DNA of 59,922 bases from Candidatus Calditenuaceae archaeon (GTDB lineage: Archaea; Thermoproteota; Nitrososphaeria_A; Caldarchaeales; Calditenuaceae), in the NCBI GenBank assembly GCA_025058225.1, contig JANXEE010000016.1:1-59922 (forward strand), given 5' to 3'. The position numbers and the translations under genes were made by a program. Under the pieces are notes generated by a model. That model was not told the DNA's origin, ran no database searches, and was given only the letters and a program-made list of their open reading frames with translations. Each line of letters opens with the position of its first letter. Within the stretch, counting starts at the first letter, position 1. Shown one piece after another: positions 25,791 through 58,248 of this stretch.

Positions 25791-27239
25791 TCAAATCAAA
25801 ACTCCAGGGTTGAGGATTCCTTGCGGGTCGAAGAGCTCCTTGATTTTCCTCATCAGGTCAAGGGATTCGCCGTGTTGAGTGGACATGAAGTCCTTCTTCT
25901 CGATTCCTATTCCGTGCTCGGCGGAGGCAGCACCGCCAACTGATATCGCGTAATCGACGAGCTCTGCGTTAGCCTTTGCCGCCCTCATCCAAGAGTCGGT
26001 GTCGCGCCCATCGGTGAGCCAGTTGGTGTGAATGTTGCCGTCGCCTAAATGTCCGGCGACCCCCACGGTCACGCCGTACCTTTCCCCCAGCTCGTAAGAC
26101 TTCATCACGGTGTCAAGGAGCTTGGACAGAGGCACGATTATGTCCCCTGTGATTGGTGCTTTAGACGCCCTCATCACCGAGGGGTATAACGCCTTCCTCG
26201 CCTCCCAGATCCTCTGTTCCTCGTCGGCGCTGTGGGGGAGCTCGATCTGTACCACACCGCTCCCTTTCAAGATGTCAGTCGCTGCCCTCACTTCCTCTTC
26301 GACTCCTCGTCTGGAGTAACCGTGAAACTCCAAGATCAGCATGCACTCGTGCGTTGGGAGGAGAACGCTTGAGTGCTTAGAGATCAACTCGACGTGAAGT
26401 CTGTCAAGGAACTCGATCGCCGCAGGATCGAGGCCCTCCTGCCTGACGGCGTTTATTGCAGAGACGCCTCCCTCGATCGAGTCGAAGTAGGCCGCGACGG
26501 TCGATCGGTGCTTAGGTAGCTTCCTCAACTTGAGCGTTGCATCGGTGATAACACCCAGTGTCCCTTCCGATCCCACGAGGAGCCTCACGAGGTCGTAACC
26601 CACGGAGGACTTGAAGACGTTGGCTCCGACCCGCAGCACCTTCCCAGTGGGTGTGACGAGCCTGAGCGACAAGACGTAGTCCCTCGTGACGCCATAACGT
26701 ACCGCCCTGAGTCCTGAGGCGTTGTTGGCGATCATTCCACCGATAGTACACGACCTGCTGCTGCCAGGGTCAGGTGGAAAGAACAGACCGTGCGGTGCTA
26801 AATGGGCGTTAAGCTGATCGTATATGACGCCGGGCTGGACGTCAACCTGAAGGTCCAATGGCCTGACCTCGATGACTCTGTTCATCTTCATGGTATTGAT
26901 CACGATGCCCCCATAGACCGGGACACACGCGCCCGCGAGTCCTGTGCCACCCCCTCTGACGTAAACCGGAATTCTTCTGTCGTTTGCGAGCCTTAGCACC
27001 TCTGATACCTCTTCAGCTGTCTCGGGCCATACAACCACGTCTGGTAGGTGCAGCTCACCAGGGTATGCATCGAGCGCGTTGGTCAAGAGGTCATACCTGT
27101 CGGTCGAGACGTCTTCAGGGCCGAGCACACGCCTCAACCTCTCCAGGTCAGAACTTGATGGAGTACCGTAACCCTCCAATTCCGTTCCGTCATCGACACG
27201 GTGGCATATGGGACTTTCGAGGCGGCGGGGGTGAGTCAC
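25791..27239 (-). CDS. FAD-linked oxidase (GlcD / D-lactate dehydrogenase family)
   Basis: PVYVRGGGTGLAGACVPVYGGIVINTMKMNRV, GGMIANNASGLRAVRYG, GVAGHLGDGNIH, AEHGIGIEKK. Confidence 0.92.
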   Translation of the reverse strand: MTHPRRLESPICHRVDDGTELEGYGTPSSSDLERLRRVLGPEDVSTDRYDLLTNALDAYPGELHLPDVVVWPETAEEVSEVLRLANDRRIPVYVRGGGTGLAGACVPVYGGIVINTMKMNRVIEVRPLDLQVDVQPGVIYDQLNAHLAPHGLFFPPDPGSSRSCTIGGMIANNASGLRAVRYGVTRDYVLSLRLVTPTGKVLRVGANVFKSSVGYDLVRLLVGSEGTLGVITDATLKLRKLPKHRSTVAAYFDSIEGGVSAINAVRQEGLDPAAIEFLDRLHVELISKHSSVLLPTHECMLILEFHGYSRRGVEEEVRAATDILKGSGVVQIELPHSADEEQRIWEARKALYPSVMRASKAPITGDIIVPLSKLLDTVMKSYELGERYGVTVGVAGHLGDGNIHTNWLTDGRDTDSWMRAAKANAELVDYAISVGGAASAEHGIGIEKKDFMSTQHGESLDLMRKIKELFDPQGILNPGVLI

Positions 27240-27616
27240 TCTTCAGTCAAGTACTTCCTGAGGTCTTTGACCTCTCCGTCCTTGAGGACCTTAACGCTGG
27301 TGGAAACTCTCACCGGTATCCCGAACGACCTGAACAACCTCAGCAGGTCACCGGCATCGATGGGCGGTTGGAGCTTACCCTCACGGACCGCTCTCACCAG
27401 CGCATTAGCGACCTTCTCCACGACAGCGGCGTTGAGCTGGTAGGCCTCATTCAGGACCTCCACGCCCCTTTCGTCCAGGTGGTCTTTCAGCTCTTCGACC
27501 GATGACCTCTTCTCGTCCCTCTTAGGCTCCGTTTGGGGTGACCTAGCGGCCATCAGAGTTCTCAGCCTCTTCAGCCTCAGACGCTTGAGCTCGATGTCGT
27601 CATCACTGGGCATCAA
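27236..27616 (-). CDS. PDCD5/TFAR19-like DNA-binding protein
   Basis: Basic N-terminal helix, then RGVEVLNEAYQLNAAVVEKVANALVRAVREGKLQPPIDAGDLLRLFRSF, as in the PDCD5 helical core. Confidence 0.6.
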   Translation of the reverse strand: MMPSDDDIELKRLRLKRLRTLMAARSPQTEPKRDEKRSSVEELKDHLDERGVEVLNEAYQLNAAVVEKVANALVRAVREGKLQPPIDAGDLLRLFRSFGIPVRVSTSVKVLKDGEVKDLRKYLTEE

Positions 27617-39680: not shown

Positions 39681-40367
39681 TCAGCGTCTCCTGATCAGAG
39701 CGTGTGCAAGCCTTCCCTCCATAATGAACTCAAGGATCTGGTTTCCGGTGATCCTCGACCAGGAACGGACCTCGCGCTCCGAGCCCTCATCAGCTTCCGC
39801 GACCAGGTGAATGACCTGACCGGAGGGAACCTGTTTGATCGCGTCAGAGAGCACGATCAAGGCCTGGCTGCACTCCACGCCGATGGCCGCCATAACGATG
39901 TCCGGGACCTCCTTGAAGCAGACGATGCCCCTACCCTTGATCTCGCCCAGAAGCGCCTCTGCGACCTCGTTGAATGGCTTGAGCCTCTCCAGGTAATTTC
40001 CACCGAGGGGTTTCAACCTCGCTATCCAGCCGCGACCGTAAGGATCTGACTGCGGGAGATGGGGGGTGTTGCTGAGCTCCGCGTTGACCTCGACGATCTC
40101 GACCTTGAAATTCGCCGTGACGTGTCCGACGAATTTCTTCGCCTCAATGAACGCCAGCGACCTGCCCTCCTCGACGACCGTGCCGACCGGTTTCGGTATG
40201 ATGGTCGTTATCTTCCCCCACTTAAACTGGGTCGTGGGGAGGAGTCCCAACTTGAGGACCCCGTCCTCGTCGACGTACCAGCTCTCGTTGCCCGGGTCGT
40301 AAAGCGCCTTCTTGATGAGCGTGCAACCGTTTACGACCAGCGCCTCCTCCCCCTCAACGACGCTCAT
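39681..40367 (-). CDS. GcvH-like lipoyl-carrier domain fused to TusA/SirA-like sulfur-carrier domain
   Basis: N-terminal half: KLGLLPTTQFKWGKITTIIPKPVGTVVEEGRSLAFIEAKKFVGHVTANFKVEIVEVNAELSNTPHLPQSDPYGRGWIARLKP (H-protein with lipoyl-Lys position). C-terminal half: AAIGVECSQALIVLSDAIKQVPSGQVIHLVAEADEGSEREVRSWSRITGNQILEFIMEGRLAHALIRR (TusA-like with its Cys). Confidence 0.8.
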   Translation of the reverse strand: MSVVEGEEALVVNGCTLIKKALYDPGNESWYVDEDGVLKLGLLPTTQFKWGKITTIIPKPVGTVVEEGRSLAFIEAKKFVGHVTANFKVEIVEVNAELSNTPHLPQSDPYGRGWIARLKPLGGNYLERLKPFNEVAEALLGEIKGRGIVCFKEVPDIVMAAIGVECSQALIVLSDAIKQVPSGQVIHLVAEADEGSEREVRSWSRITGNQILEFIMEGRLAHALIRRR

Positions 40368-53245: not shown

Positions 53246-55786
53246 ATGGTCCGGCGCGTCCTCGGAGACTTATCGATAGCCGTCTTGACCGCGACGATCT
53301 CCGTCCTGCTGGTCCTGGTGTCTGGGCCCTTCGCGGTCCTCCATCCCATCAAGGGCGTCTGGACCGAGCTCGAGAGGGTTGAGGTCTCAGACGCGAGCGT
53401 GAGGCTCCCAGGCCTGAGGTCGCAGGTGAAGGTCGTCTACGACGGCAGGCTCGTCCCACACGTCTTCGCCGCCGACGAGCTCGACGCTTTCAGGGCCCTC
53501 GGTTACGTCCACGCGAGGGACAGGCTCTGGCAGATGGACGTGCAGAGGAGGCTTGCCTCGGGGAGGCTCTCCGAGATTGTCGGGGAGGCCGGCCTGAGGA
53601 CCGACACGTTGATGAGGGTCATCGGCCTTCAAAGGTCCGCGAGGGCCACCGCGGAGTGGCTCAGGACGAACCACCCTGATGTCCACTCTGTCCTGATCGC
53701 CTACTCAGAGGGCGTGAACGCAGCGATCGAGGAGATGAAGACCTCGGGGAGGCTGCCCCTGATGTTCAAGCTGCTCAACTACGAGCCTGAACTGTGGAAG
53801 CCGGAGGACTCCCTCGTCTGGGCGAGGTTCATGGCGTGGACGCTCACTGGCTTTTGGTACCCCTTGCTCTCAACGGCCCTCGCGGTCAAGCTGGGACCCT
53901 CCGAGGCGATGAAGCTCTATCCGGTCAGGCACTACTACATCGAGAACGTCACCGTCGTCCCCGGGGACGGATCGATCGGGGGGCTTAGGCTCGGCGCGGA
54001 CCCGGACCTCCTCGATAAACTCAACTGGTTCGAGGAGTGGGCGACCGGCGTAGACTTCACCGATAAGGAGCTCGCGCGGAGGCTCTTCGAGTTCGTCAAC
54101 GCGGTCTCGGGCGTCGCGGGTTTCGGGAGGCTCGACGTCGGTAGCAACAACTGGGTCGTCTCGCCGAGGCTCTCCGCGACTGGCGGGCCGATGCTCGCAG
54201 ACGACCCCCACCTCTCCCTGAACCTTCCCTCAGTCTGGTACGAGGTTCACCTCGTGACCGGCGAGCTGAACGCGAGGGGAGTCACTCTGCCCGGGGTGCC
54301 CTTCGTGATCATAGGGTTCAACGAGCACGTCGCGTGGGGCCTCACCAACTCGCAGATCGGGGTCACAGACTTCTACCTCGAGAGGGTCAGGGGAAACCAG
54401 TACTTCTTCAAGGGAGAGTGGAGGGAGATGAGGAGGCTCGAGGAGACGATCAGGGTCAGAGGAGGAGGCGAGAGGGTCATAACCGTCAACCTGACTGTCC
54501 ACGGGCCGGTCTTCCACCACAACGGTGTGTACGTCTCGATGAAGTGGACCGCGATCTCCGGGTTCAACGACGACGGCTCCGGCGTGACGCGTGAGTCGGT
54601 CGCGGCCTACAGGGTGATGAGGGCGAAATCGCTCGCCGAGGTCGTCGAAGCGCTGAGGTACTGGGATGTGCCGTCGCAGAACTGGGCGGTGATCGATAAG
54701 CAGGGGAACTACGGCATCGTCGTCCCCGGGCTCTTCCCTTACAGGACCGTGAGGCTCCCGACCGGCGAGTCGATCAATGTGATAGGCTCGAGGTCGATTC
54801 TGAACGGAACCGGTGCGTACGAGTGGGAGGGCTTCGTGCCCTACGAGCACGTCCCGATGACGATCAACCCGGCGAGGGGCTTCGCGGCCGCGCCGAACCA
54901 GCAGACCGCGGGGAGTCTCTATCCTTACTACATCTTAGCGGGATGGTACGACCCTGGCGCCAGGGCCCAGCGGATACACGCCCTCCTCGCGTCGAAGGAG
55001 CTCCACTCTGTCGAGGACTTCATGAGGTATCAGAACGACGTTTACCTCTGGTTCGCGGCCTCTACCGTGCCCAGGTTACTCGAGTTAGCGGTGGGCTTCG
55101 ACGGGCTCACCAGCCTCGAGAGGAGCGCGCTGGAGGAGCTCCGCAGGTGGGACCACCGCATGAGCAGAGGATCAGTTGCCCCCACGTTGTGGTGGGCATG
55201 GTTCTCGGCGTTATACGACGAGGCCTTCACGAAGAGGTTCCGGGAAAGGGGCCTATCGAGGAGCTACCTCCCCCCTGAGTCGACGCTGGTCTGGTTGATC
55301 CACGAGGAGCCGAACAGCAGCTGGTTCGGTGGCGACCTGAGGAGGACAGCGCGTGCCGCATTCACGAGGGCTCTGGAGTGGCTGACCTCGACGTTCGGGC
55401 CTGACCTTACCGGGTGGACTTGGGGAAAGGTACACAGGCTCCGGGTGGGACATCTGAGCTCATCGGAGACGCTCTCGATCGGGCCCCTGCCCCATGACGG
55501 AGCGTCAGGCACCCTGATGAACGCTGGTTTCCCCTACGACTTAGACGCGGTCGGGAGGAGGGTCTACGTGACTACGGGGCCTAGCTGGAAGATGATCGTC
55601 AGCTTCGTGGACGGAAGACCCTTGGCTTACGGAGTCTTGCCCGGCGGCCAGAGCGATAGTCCGCTCTCGGACTTTTACTCCGACTCCTTCGACGAGTGGT
55701 ATGAGTACCGCTATCATGTCCTAGGCTTTCCTCGCTTCCCGGAGGAGGTCTCCGACAGATTGATGGTCCTGACCCTCAGCGGGTGA
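53246..55786 (+). CDS. penicillin acylase family (S45 Ntn) hydrolase, membrane-anchored or exported
   Basis: GYVHARDRLWQMDVQRRLASGRLSEI, DVGSNNWVVSPRLSATGGPMLADDPHL (expected G|S processing site), AAPNQQTAG; N-terminal hydrophobic segment. Confidence 0.92.
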   Translation: MVRRVLGDLSIAVLTATISVLLVLVSGPFAVLHPIKGVWTELERVEVSDASVRLPGLRSQVKVVYDGRLVPHVFAADELDAFRALGYVHARDRLWQMDVQRRLASGRLSEIVGEAGLRTDTLMRVIGLQRSARATAEWLRTNHPDVHSVLIAYSEGVNAAIEEMKTSGRLPLMFKLLNYEPELWKPEDSLVWARFMAWTLTGFWYPLLSTALAVKLGPSEAMKLYPVRHYYIENVTVVPGDGSIGGLRLGADPDLLDKLNWFEEWATGVDFTDKELARRLFEFVNAVSGVAGFGRLDVGSNNWVVSPRLSATGGPMLADDPHLSLNLPSVWYEVHLVTGELNARGVTLPGVPFVIIGFNEHVAWGLTNSQIGVTDFYLERVRGNQYFFKGEWREMRRLEETIRVRGGGERVITVNLTVHGPVFHHNGVYVSMKWTAISGFNDDGSGVTRESVAAYRVMRAKSLAEVVEALRYWDVPSQNWAVIDKQGNYGIVVPGLFPYRTVRLPTGESINVIGSRSILNGTGAYEWEGFVPYEHVPMTINPARGFAAAPNQQTAGSLYPYYILAGWYDPGARAQRIHALLASKELHSVEDFMRYQNDVYLWFAASTVPRLLELAVGFDGLTSLERSALEELRRWDHRMSRGSVAPTLWWAWFSALYDEAFTKRFRERGLSRSYLPPESTLVWLIHEEPNSSWFGGDLRRTARAAFTRALEWLTSTFGPDLTGWTWGKVHRLRVGHLSSSETLSIGPLPHDGASGTLMNAGFPYDLDAVGRRVYVTTGPSWKMIVSFVDGRPLAYGVLPGGQSDSPLSDFYSDSFDEWYEYRYHVLGFPRFPEEVSDRLMVLTLSG

Positions 55787-55790
55787 AAAC

Positions 55791-56180
55791 GTGAACGTGA
55801 AGAGCCTGCTTACTCTGATCGGGGTGCCGATAGGTGCAGCGGCCCTGATCGTCTTGCCCCAGAACCTCTGGTCGGTGGCTGCGCTCATCACCGGCATAGT
55901 CGGAGGCTCCCTGCTCAGGAGGAGGCTCATAGCCCTTCCGTACGCAGCGATCGGCACCACGCCCTATCTCATTGCGCTCTCCGTCGCGCTCTCGGAGCCC
56001 AAGGCCCTCAAACTCGCCGAGCTGCTCTCGAACCTCGTGGGGATGCCGGCCACGGCTCTCATACTGCTACCGGTCGTTGTCTACTTCCTCGTGACAACGT
56101 CTAGCGCCGTCTCCGCAAGTTCAATAATGAGGGTGATCGCCGGCAGACGGAGGGCGCATGAGGTATACGACGCTCGGTAA
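55791..56180 (+). CDS. small multi-pass membrane protein
   Basis: 129 aa, several hydrophobic segments; overlaps the next gene. Confidence 0.6.
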   Translation: MNVKSLLTLIGVPIGAAALIVLPQNLWSVAALITGIVGGSLLRRRLIALPYAAIGTTPYLIALSVALSEPKALKLAELLSNLVGMPATALILLPVVVYFLVTTSSAVSASSIMRVIAGRRRAHEVYDAR

Positions 56181-57138
56181 AACATCTGAGAGGGTGTCTG
56201 TTATAGCGGTGGGCACGTGGCAGATCGGCAGTAGGGAGTGGGGATGGGGAAGGGGTTACGGCGAGGAGCAAGTCGTTCAGGCCATCAAAAGGTCTGTGGA
56301 GCTCGGTGTGAACTTGATAGACACAGCTGAGATCTACGGAGGTGGCCGGTCAGAGGAGATAGTCGGGAGAGCGATCAAGGGTATCAGGGACTCTGTTTTG
56401 ATAGCTACGAAGGTCTGGCCCACCCACGCGACCTATGACGGTACCATCAAGGCATGTGAGCGGAGCCTCAGGAGGTTGAACGTGGACGTCATTGACTTGT
56501 ATCAGGTCCACTGGCCGAACCCGCTCATCCCGATATCGTCGACGATGAGGGCGATGGAACGGCTCGTGAACGAGGGGAAGGTCAGGTACATCGGCGTCAG
56601 CAACTTCTCACCCTCCCAACTCAGAAGAGCTCAGGAGTCCCTTAAGTCCCAAGAGATTGTCTCCAACCAGGTGAAGTACAACCTGTTGGAGAGGAAGGCC
56701 GCTGAAGGCGTCTTCTCGACGTTCGGGGACAGCATAACGGTCCTCGCCTACAGCCCCCTCGCTCAGGGCCTCTTGACGGGGAAGTACTCCGTCCGGAGGA
56801 GGCCCAAGGACATCGTAAGGGGCCTGAACCAGCTCTTCGACACGACCAACTTGAGAAGGGTTGAGCCTTTGATTCAAAAGATGCGCGAGCTCGCTGAGAA
56901 GAAAGGGTGCGATGTCTCACAAATCGCTCTGAGGGCCCTCATCGAGAGGGGCAAGGTGGTGGCGATAGCGGGTGTGAAGGACGAGAATCAGGCCGAGCTC
57001 AACGCCCTGGCTGCCGAAGTCCCGTTGAGCCCTGCAGAGGTTGATGAGCTGTTCCGAACGGTGAGAGACATAAAGCTGGCGACCCTTTTACCGATGGTCA
57101 GGACACCTCTAAGGATGGTGGCTGCCCTCACAGCGTGA
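56158..57138 (+). CDS. aldo/keto reductase
   Basis: MRYTTLGKTSERVSVIAVGTWQIG, NLIDTAEIYGGGRSEEIVG, GVSNFSPSQL, YSPLAQGLLTGKY. Confidence 0.95.
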   Translation: MRYTTLGKTSERVSVIAVGTWQIGSREWGWGRGYGEEQVVQAIKRSVELGVNLIDTAEIYGGGRSEEIVGRAIKGIRDSVLIATKVWPTHATYDGTIKACERSLRRLNVDVIDLYQVHWPNPLIPISSTMRAMERLVNEGKVRYIGVSNFSPSQLRRAQESLKSQEIVSNQVKYNLLERKAAEGVFSTFGDSITVLAYSPLAQGLLTGKYSVRRRPKDIVRGLNQLFDTTNLRRVEPLIQKMRELAEKKGCDVSQIALRALIERGKVVAIAGVKDENQAELNALAAEVPLSPAEVDELFRTVRDIKLATLLPMVRTPLRMVAALTA

Positions 57139-57152
57139 CGGAAAATTTACGT

Positions 57153-57590
57153 TCACTCGGTTTCGCCAGCCTCCAGCTCCAGCTCCTCCAGGTACCTCGT
57201 GTACTCGTCGGGTTGCATGAGGTCCTCTAACTCGGTCGGGTCAGAGATCTCGATCCTGCAGAGCCAGCCGTCCTCGTAGGGGAACTCGTTGATCAGCTCC
57301 GGGCTGTCAATCAACTTAGCGTTCACCTCGACCACCTTGCCGGTGATGGGGGCCCTGACCTCGTGGCTTCCGCCGATCGACTCTATCGTGGCGAGGTGCT
57401 GGCCCCTGGTCAGCTTCGTGTTGATGTTGGGAAGCTCGACGTAGAGTATCTCCCTCAGTTTCCTCTGGACGTAATCGGTGACCCCCGTTACCGCGTGTTT
57501 ACCCTTCACCCTCACCCACTCGTGGTTCCTTGAGTACTGCAAGCCTCCCGGTACCTCGTAGGAGCCTGACATGTATCTATCAGCCTGCAA
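57153..57590 (-). CDS. GcvH-family protein lacking the lipoyl lysine
   Basis: YSRNHEWVRVKGKHAVTGVTDYVQRKLREILYVELPNI...ATIESIGGSHEVRAPITGKVVEVNAKLIDSPELINEFPYEDGWLCRI; ESI-G-G replaces the usual ESV-K-A. Confidence 0.9.
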   Translation of the reverse strand: MQADRYMSGSYEVPGGLQYSRNHEWVRVKGKHAVTGVTDYVQRKLREILYVELPNINTKLTRGQHLATIESIGGSHEVRAPITGKVVEVNAKLIDSPELINEFPYEDGWLCRIEISDPTELEDLMQPDEYTRYLEELELEAGETE

Positions 57591-57693: not shown

Positions 57694-58248
57694 TTGGTGA
57701 TACCCAAGAGAGGGCTGCTGATAGGCCGATTCCAGCCGTTCCACATCGGTCACCTCAAGGCGGTCGAACAGGTGCTGTCTGAGAACGAAGAGGCTGTGAT
57801 CGCGATAGGTAGCTCCCAGTACAGCTTTACTCCGGAAAACCCCTTCACCGCCGGCGAGAGGATCGAGATGATCCGGATAGCTCTGCGGGGCGCGGGTCAC
57901 GACCTCTCGAGGGCTATCGCGGTGCCTGTTCCTGACATAGGAGAGCACCATCTCTGGATGAGCAGGGTGATCGCAACGGTTCCGAAGTTCGATACGCTCT
58001 ACACGAACAACCCGTTCGTGAGGACGTTGGCAGAGGCGGTCGGAGTGAGGGTCAAGGAGCCAGAGCTCTACGAGAGAGACAGGTTCAACGGAACCGAGAT
58101 CAGGAGGTTGATGCTCGAGGGCGGGGCCTGGGAGAACTTCGTTCAGCGGGAGGTCGCGGCGTACATAAAGAAGATCGGTGGTGTGGAGCGATTGAGGGTC
58201 ATCCACTCCCAGGTCAGGACCTCCGCAACCCGGGAGGGGAATCCTTGA
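57694..58248 (+). CDS. nadM: nicotinamide-nucleotide adenylyltransferase, archaeal type
   Basis: RGLLIGRFQPFHIGHLKAVEQVL, AIGSSQYSFTPENPFTAGERIEMI, NGTEIRRLM. Confidence 0.93.
   Translation: MVIPKRGLLIGRFQPFHIGHLKAVEQVLSENEEAVIAIGSSQYSFTPENPFTAGERIEMIRIALRGAGHDLSRAIAVPVPDIGEHHLWMSRVIATVPKFDTLYTNNPFVRTLAEAVGVRVKEPELYERDRFNGTEIRRLMLEGGAWENFVQREVAAYIKKIGGVERLRVIHSQVRTSATREGNP

Follow-up and report, generated by a model that had tools for sequence, protein, structure and literature searches.

The 59,922-nucleotide stretch of a Candidatus Calditenuaceae archaeon analysed here (the window) contains a gene for a homologue of the H-protein GcvH in which glycine takes the place of the lipoyl lysine. 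The known roles of H-proteins, namely glycine cleavage, lipoyl relay and, for the LbpA cousins, sHdr, all depend on this lysine. The locus therefore raises the question of whether the gene is a remnant or encodes a protein with some other function. In the literature searched, we found no report of a conserved GcvH that lacks the lysine.

The lipoyl site in genus g1

The open reading frame at 57153-57590 on the reverse strand encodes 145 amino acids from a TTG codon and 139 from the ATG at 57572. The latter is likely the start, because the alignment of relatives begins there and because a related genome, G011, has an in-frame TAG immediately upstream of the matching position (Table 1). The product scores 124 bits against Pfam GCV_H (PF01597; cut-off 22) and 122 bits against NCBIfam gcvH (TIGR00527), which is above the cut-off of 115.85. 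The first-pass annotation had described a GcvH whose lipoyl lysine is replaced by glycine with no gap, and the alignment bears this out: in a gap-free alignment, Gly67 of ESI-G-GSHE (codon GGC, 57374-57372) occupies the position at which the H-proteins of pea and Thermotoga have their lipoyl lysine (ESVKAT and ESVKAA). No alternative lysine that could occupy the hairpin position occurs in residues 59-73.

Table 1. Features of the window discussed in the text
Feature	Coordinates	Strand	Remarks
Lysine-less GcvH, 139 aa	57153..57572	-	ATG at 57572, stop codon 57155-57153; Pfam GCV_H 124 bits
Lipoyl-lysine position, codon GGC = Gly67	57372..57374	-	AlphaFold: turn between strands 59-65 and 68-73
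Beta hairpin for lipoyl-lysine presentation, residues 59-73, HLATIESIGGSHEVR	57354..57398	-	0 Lys
Six extra codons of TTG ORF, probably untranslated	57573..57590	-	G011 in-frame TAG; homologues begin at ATG
GcvH-TusA fusion, 228 aa, paralogue	39681..40367	-	Lys here; K/R/N/I in relatives
Aldo/keto reductase, convergent	56158..57138	+	Beside lysine-less gcvH in 4/4 genus members
NMN adenylyltransferase, divergent	57694..58248	+	Neighbour in 3/4 genus members
Penicillin amidase family protein	53246..55786	+	657 bits
PDCD5-like dsDNA_bind protein	27236..27616	-	Orthologues often upstream of gcvH elsewhere in order

The lipoyl lysine is missing from all four examined genomes of the genus, designated g1, which comprises hot-spring archaea of Ca. 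Calditenuaceae in the order Caldarchaeales (formerly Aigarchaeota). The site is glycine in three members (GGC in the window genome, GGA in G011 and GGG in G012) and arginine in the fourth (CGT in G010), and the four proteins form one clade with support of 99/99. Lysine is kept in all 33 other orthologues read outside g1 and a second genus, g9. Given that the window genome is an incomplete draft and that its nearest named relatives are metagenome-assembled, the substitution might be suspected of being an artefact of sequencing or assembly. However, three separate genomes have glycine in three different codons, one has arginine, and the group is monophyletic; these differing codons exclude an error, and we give this explanation practically no weight.

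A DNA pattern scan for lysine-less sites in 400 genomes of the phylum recovered the four g1 members and one GcvH-TusA fusion with isoleucine (L107, family f45). The five remaining matches were judged to be chance from their matched letters, and an out-of-frame version of the pattern, used as a background check, gave two chance matches in the same number of genomes. Codons whose second base is A escape the pattern, which also requires Glu three residues upstream, and for both reasons it overlooked the aspartate variant of g9 described below.

Glycine cleavage, lipoylation and selection

GcvP (PF02347) and GcvT (PF01571) were found in none of the four g1 genomes, which are 73% (the window genome), 91%, 77% and 57% complete. 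Three of the four are thus less than 80% complete, but the chance of missing a single GCS locus in all of them through incompleteness is approximately 0.27 x 0.09 x 0.23 x 0.43 = 0.002, an estimate that presumes that the GCS genes lie in one locus. The earlier remark that the window lacks gcvT and gcvP therefore extends to the whole assembly, and the glycine cleavage system has been lost from the genus.

Enzymes of lipoylation are still present in g1, so the lysine was lost in their presence. The window genome has an LplA-like ligase on contig C13, and the other genus members jointly have LipA (three genomes), LipB and E3, each above the curated cut-off of at least one model. A Biotin_lipoyl domain exceeds its cut-off in the window genome, G010 and G011; that of the window genome is part of a 2-oxoacid dehydrogenase E2 (contig C8) and has its lysine. 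On contig C13, an LbpA with the sequence ESAK adjoins the LplA-like ligase and Hdr-like genes. Judging from these sequences, LbpA and the E2 protein are the clear candidates for lipoylation in the window genome. The sHdr-like locus on C13 (L146) comprises DsrE proteins, LbpA, the LplA-like ligase, Hdr-like genes and a large molybdopterin oxidoreductase-like protein, and its content suggests sulfur oxidation.

AlphaFold modelling (window protein and eight relatives) gave a mean pLDDT of 92.5 and placed Gly67 in the turn that joins strands 59-65 and 68-73. A Foldseek search matched the model to the Thermus H-protein 1onl with a target TM of 0.96 and an rmsd of 0.7 A. The H-protein fold and its presenting hairpin are therefore predicted to be intact, with the acceptor alone missing. 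With the lipoyl lysine replaced, the protein would take up no lipoate and carry no aminomethyl group, and as far as its sequence can tell it cannot serve as a lipoyl carrier.

Some change is also seen around the site. Residues H70, E71, V72 and R73, beside the lost lysine, are common to all four genus members, and the derived H70 and R73 are absent from every GCS-positive row of the alignment. A simulation study reports that Ser67 and Tyr70 of the E. coli protein hold the aminomethyl-lipoate arm (PMC7733448). The H70/R73 change removes the counterparts of these two residues, which are variable in some GCS-positive rows as well.

The altered cavity residues, the lost lysine and the absence of the GCS from the genus are what would be expected of a decaying remnant, that is, a gene on its way out after GCS loss with the lysine as the first residue to go. 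The rest of the gene argues otherwise. Among the three species with glycine, dN/dS is only 0.043 to 0.104, while the glycine codon itself has turned over synonymously. GcvH identity among these species is 85 to 91%, at or above that of most neighbouring genes (65 to 95%). The alignment has 28 sites at which at least 95% of the other rows agree, and all four genus members retain 27 of them. The gene has no internal stop or frameshift in any of the four species. These comparisons indicate that lysine-less gcvH is under strong purifying selection and is not decaying, and we consider the remnant explanation very unlikely. The first-pass annotation had left the choice between a decommissioned and a moonlighting H-protein. 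Since selection is strong (dN/dS of 0.04 to 0.10) and the GCS is gone, the moonlighting half of that proposal stands and the decommissioned half does not.

Related proteins and gene neighbourhoods in Caldarchaeales

Within the same orthologue clade, the GcvH of genus g9 (family f3) reads VGSVGSIDSALDIISP, with Asp (GAT) at the lysine and Gly at the preceding Glu. Neither GcvP nor GcvT was found in the two g9 genomes, which are 97 to 98% complete. These genomes additionally carry a divergent lysine-bearing GcvH and an LbpA-like protein, so the lysine-less g9 copy may be a paralogue. The g9 gene (L094:7911-9873, and L093) is immediately followed by a gene for a class II tRNA synthetase-like protein, which has a tRNA_bind_4 domain and resembles the methanogen-type SerRS. 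The g1 and g9 losses appear to be separate: parsimony counts two changes, and the families and the replacing residues differ, although an AU test on this short protein did not reject a single origin (p = 0.11).

We collected 39 GcvH orthologue rows in Caldarchaeales, 23 of which come from genomes without detected GcvP and GcvT. A GcvH annotation alone is thus no proof of a glycine cleavage system. Lysine is kept in all 16 GCS-positive rows and is lacking in six of the 23 GCS-negative rows. The confinement of lysine-less GcvH to GCS-negative genomes is suggestive, with two independent events providing no statistical power. Genus g3 (G013-G018), which belongs to the same family as g9, is represented by six genomes at least 90% complete that keep a lysine-bearing GcvH. 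No GcvP, GcvT, PF21948 lipoate ligase/octanoyltransferase or separate lipoyl domain was found above cut-off in this genus, and for this reason its GcvH is probably unlipoylated despite the lysine.

A second H-protein-like gene in the window encodes a GcvH-TusA fusion, which the first-pass annotation suggested might be the lipoylated protein. This suggestion is weak. Among 18 members of the fusion family, including the window copy, the residue at the lipoyl position varies between K, R, N and I, with Arg in most of them. Because of this variation, lipoylation is not a conserved property of the family, and the fusion is neither a dependable lipoyl carrier nor a stand-in for the lysine-less GcvH. 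The TusA half of the window copy falls slightly below the Pfam cut-off, and the cysteine of the TusA-like half is conserved across the 18 members. These fusions (L107, L114-L130) occur across families f1 and f2 of Caldarchaeales and in a single genome of family f45, in which the gene adjoins a rhodanese-like gene. The literature searched gave no report of a GcvH-TusA fusion.

In g1, gcvH is accompanied by the aldo/keto reductase gene and, in three of the four members, by that for NMN adenylyltransferase (Table 1), and a gene of the Penicillin amidase family is near it in all four genus members. A different arrangement is found in most of the order. Arcadin-1 (PF18653) is encoded on the gcvH strand, usually directly adjoining, in 20 of the 26 neighbourhoods examined across the order (L078-L097), and a PDCD5-like gene often lies upstream of gcvH there. 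The binding of arcadin-1 to crenactin, the archaeal actin, is weak, and the function of arcadin-1 is poorly understood (PMC5173319). Of 12 genomes of the family examined, 11 encode an actin-family protein. Beyond Caldarchaeales we looked for this adjacency at 21 arcadin-1 loci of other families and rejected it, as gcvH was beside none of them. The two lineages without the lysine, g1 and g9, are precisely those in which gcvH and arcadin-1 are not neighbours, and the lysine-less protein may therefore need an explanation other than the operon. We regard the arcadin-1 association as a lead only.

Possible function and comparison with known systems

We consider it probable that the g1 protein is a lipoate-free H-protein with a moonlighting role that is independent of both the GCS and lipoate. 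A role outside the GCS is likely because GcvH is kept far beyond the GCS and mostly shares an operon with arcadin-1, and the lysine-less proteins indicate that in at least two lineages this role needs no lipoate. In g1, the glycine cleavage system was lost, and the H-protein was retained, folded and under purifying selection. Its lysine was replaced, perhaps by Arg first and then by Gly. Most likely the protein is a binding or scaffold module that uses its intact surface in some GCS-independent process, one that the GcvH of the order may already have served before the lysine was lost. The operon of gcvH, arcadin-1 and the PDCD5-like gene in the rest of the order is the sole genomic pointer to this process. 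Loss of the lysine may even have been favoured, since the remaining lipoylation enzymes would otherwise modify an idle carrier. A broader version of this proposal would have an ancient second function of the H-protein throughout Caldarchaeales, requiring neither GCS nor lipoate and tied to the arcadin-1 operon of the archaeal actin cytoskeleton, which the independent losses in g1 and g9 expose. We put this forward only tentatively and think it rather doubtful.

Two other explanations would keep the protein close to lipoate. As a regulator or decoy, the apo H-protein might bind LipA, LipB, E3 or LplA unmodified and so tune the lipoylation of E2. The genus does have LipA, LipB, E2 and E3, and H-protein is a known substrate and partner of these enzymes elsewhere; the human LIAS-H complex is among the fold matches. 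However, there is no operon link, and g3 retains GcvH with no ligase or E2 above family cut-off, so these enzymes are not the shared reason for retention; we judge the regulator unlikely. Alternatively, a cofactor or other modification could be attached elsewhere on GcvH, preserving a carrier role. A lipoylation pathway is available, yet we see no direct point in favour of such a site: the hairpin has no lysine, G010 has Arg, and neither lysine 54 nor lysine 79, a position that is K or R, is in the tip. This explanation seems to us highly improbable. A moonlighting H-protein that works without lipoate is the reading we prefer.

Like functional GcvH proteins (TIGR00527/PF01597), the window protein scores above the curated cut-off, has the fold of 1onl and 1htp, is of equal length and aligns without gaps over the active hairpin. 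Unlike them, it and its g1 relatives have Gly or Arg for the lipoyl lysine, belong to a genus without GcvP and GcvT, and are encoded by a gene that stands alone. The chlamydial GcvH-like protein (TIGR03077, not_gcvH) is likewise a GcvH homologue in organisms without GcvP and GcvT, but the window protein scores 59.6 bits against the equivalog cut-off of 144.05 and therefore lies outside that family. GcvH-L of the SirTM/macrodomain operons (5a35), which ranks 22nd among the fold matches, is also GcvH-like and acts outside glycine cleavage. It is lipoylated and ADP-ribosylated, and its gene shares an operon with those for LplA, SirTM and a macrodomain protein, whereas none of these three is found among the ORFs flanking lysine-less gcvH. 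The GcvH-TusA fusions resemble the window protein in having a GcvH-like domain without a conserved lipoyl lysine, but they are a separate deep paralogue with a fused TusA-like domain and its conserved Cys.

LbpA of sHdr sulfur oxidation is another GcvH homologue outside glycine cleavage. In a published alignment of 95 LbpA proteins, every one has the lysine and most share two conserved cysteines; their genes are located with hdr-like genes (eLife 2018, PMC6067878). Lysine-less GcvH differs in the residue itself and in being encoded beside an aldo/keto reductase and an NMN adenylyltransferase, and the true LbpA of the window genome is on contig C13. A conserved lysine-less H-protein in cells that still make lipoate but have given up glycine cleavage uncouples the protein from its cofactor, and other roles of GcvH thereby become testable.
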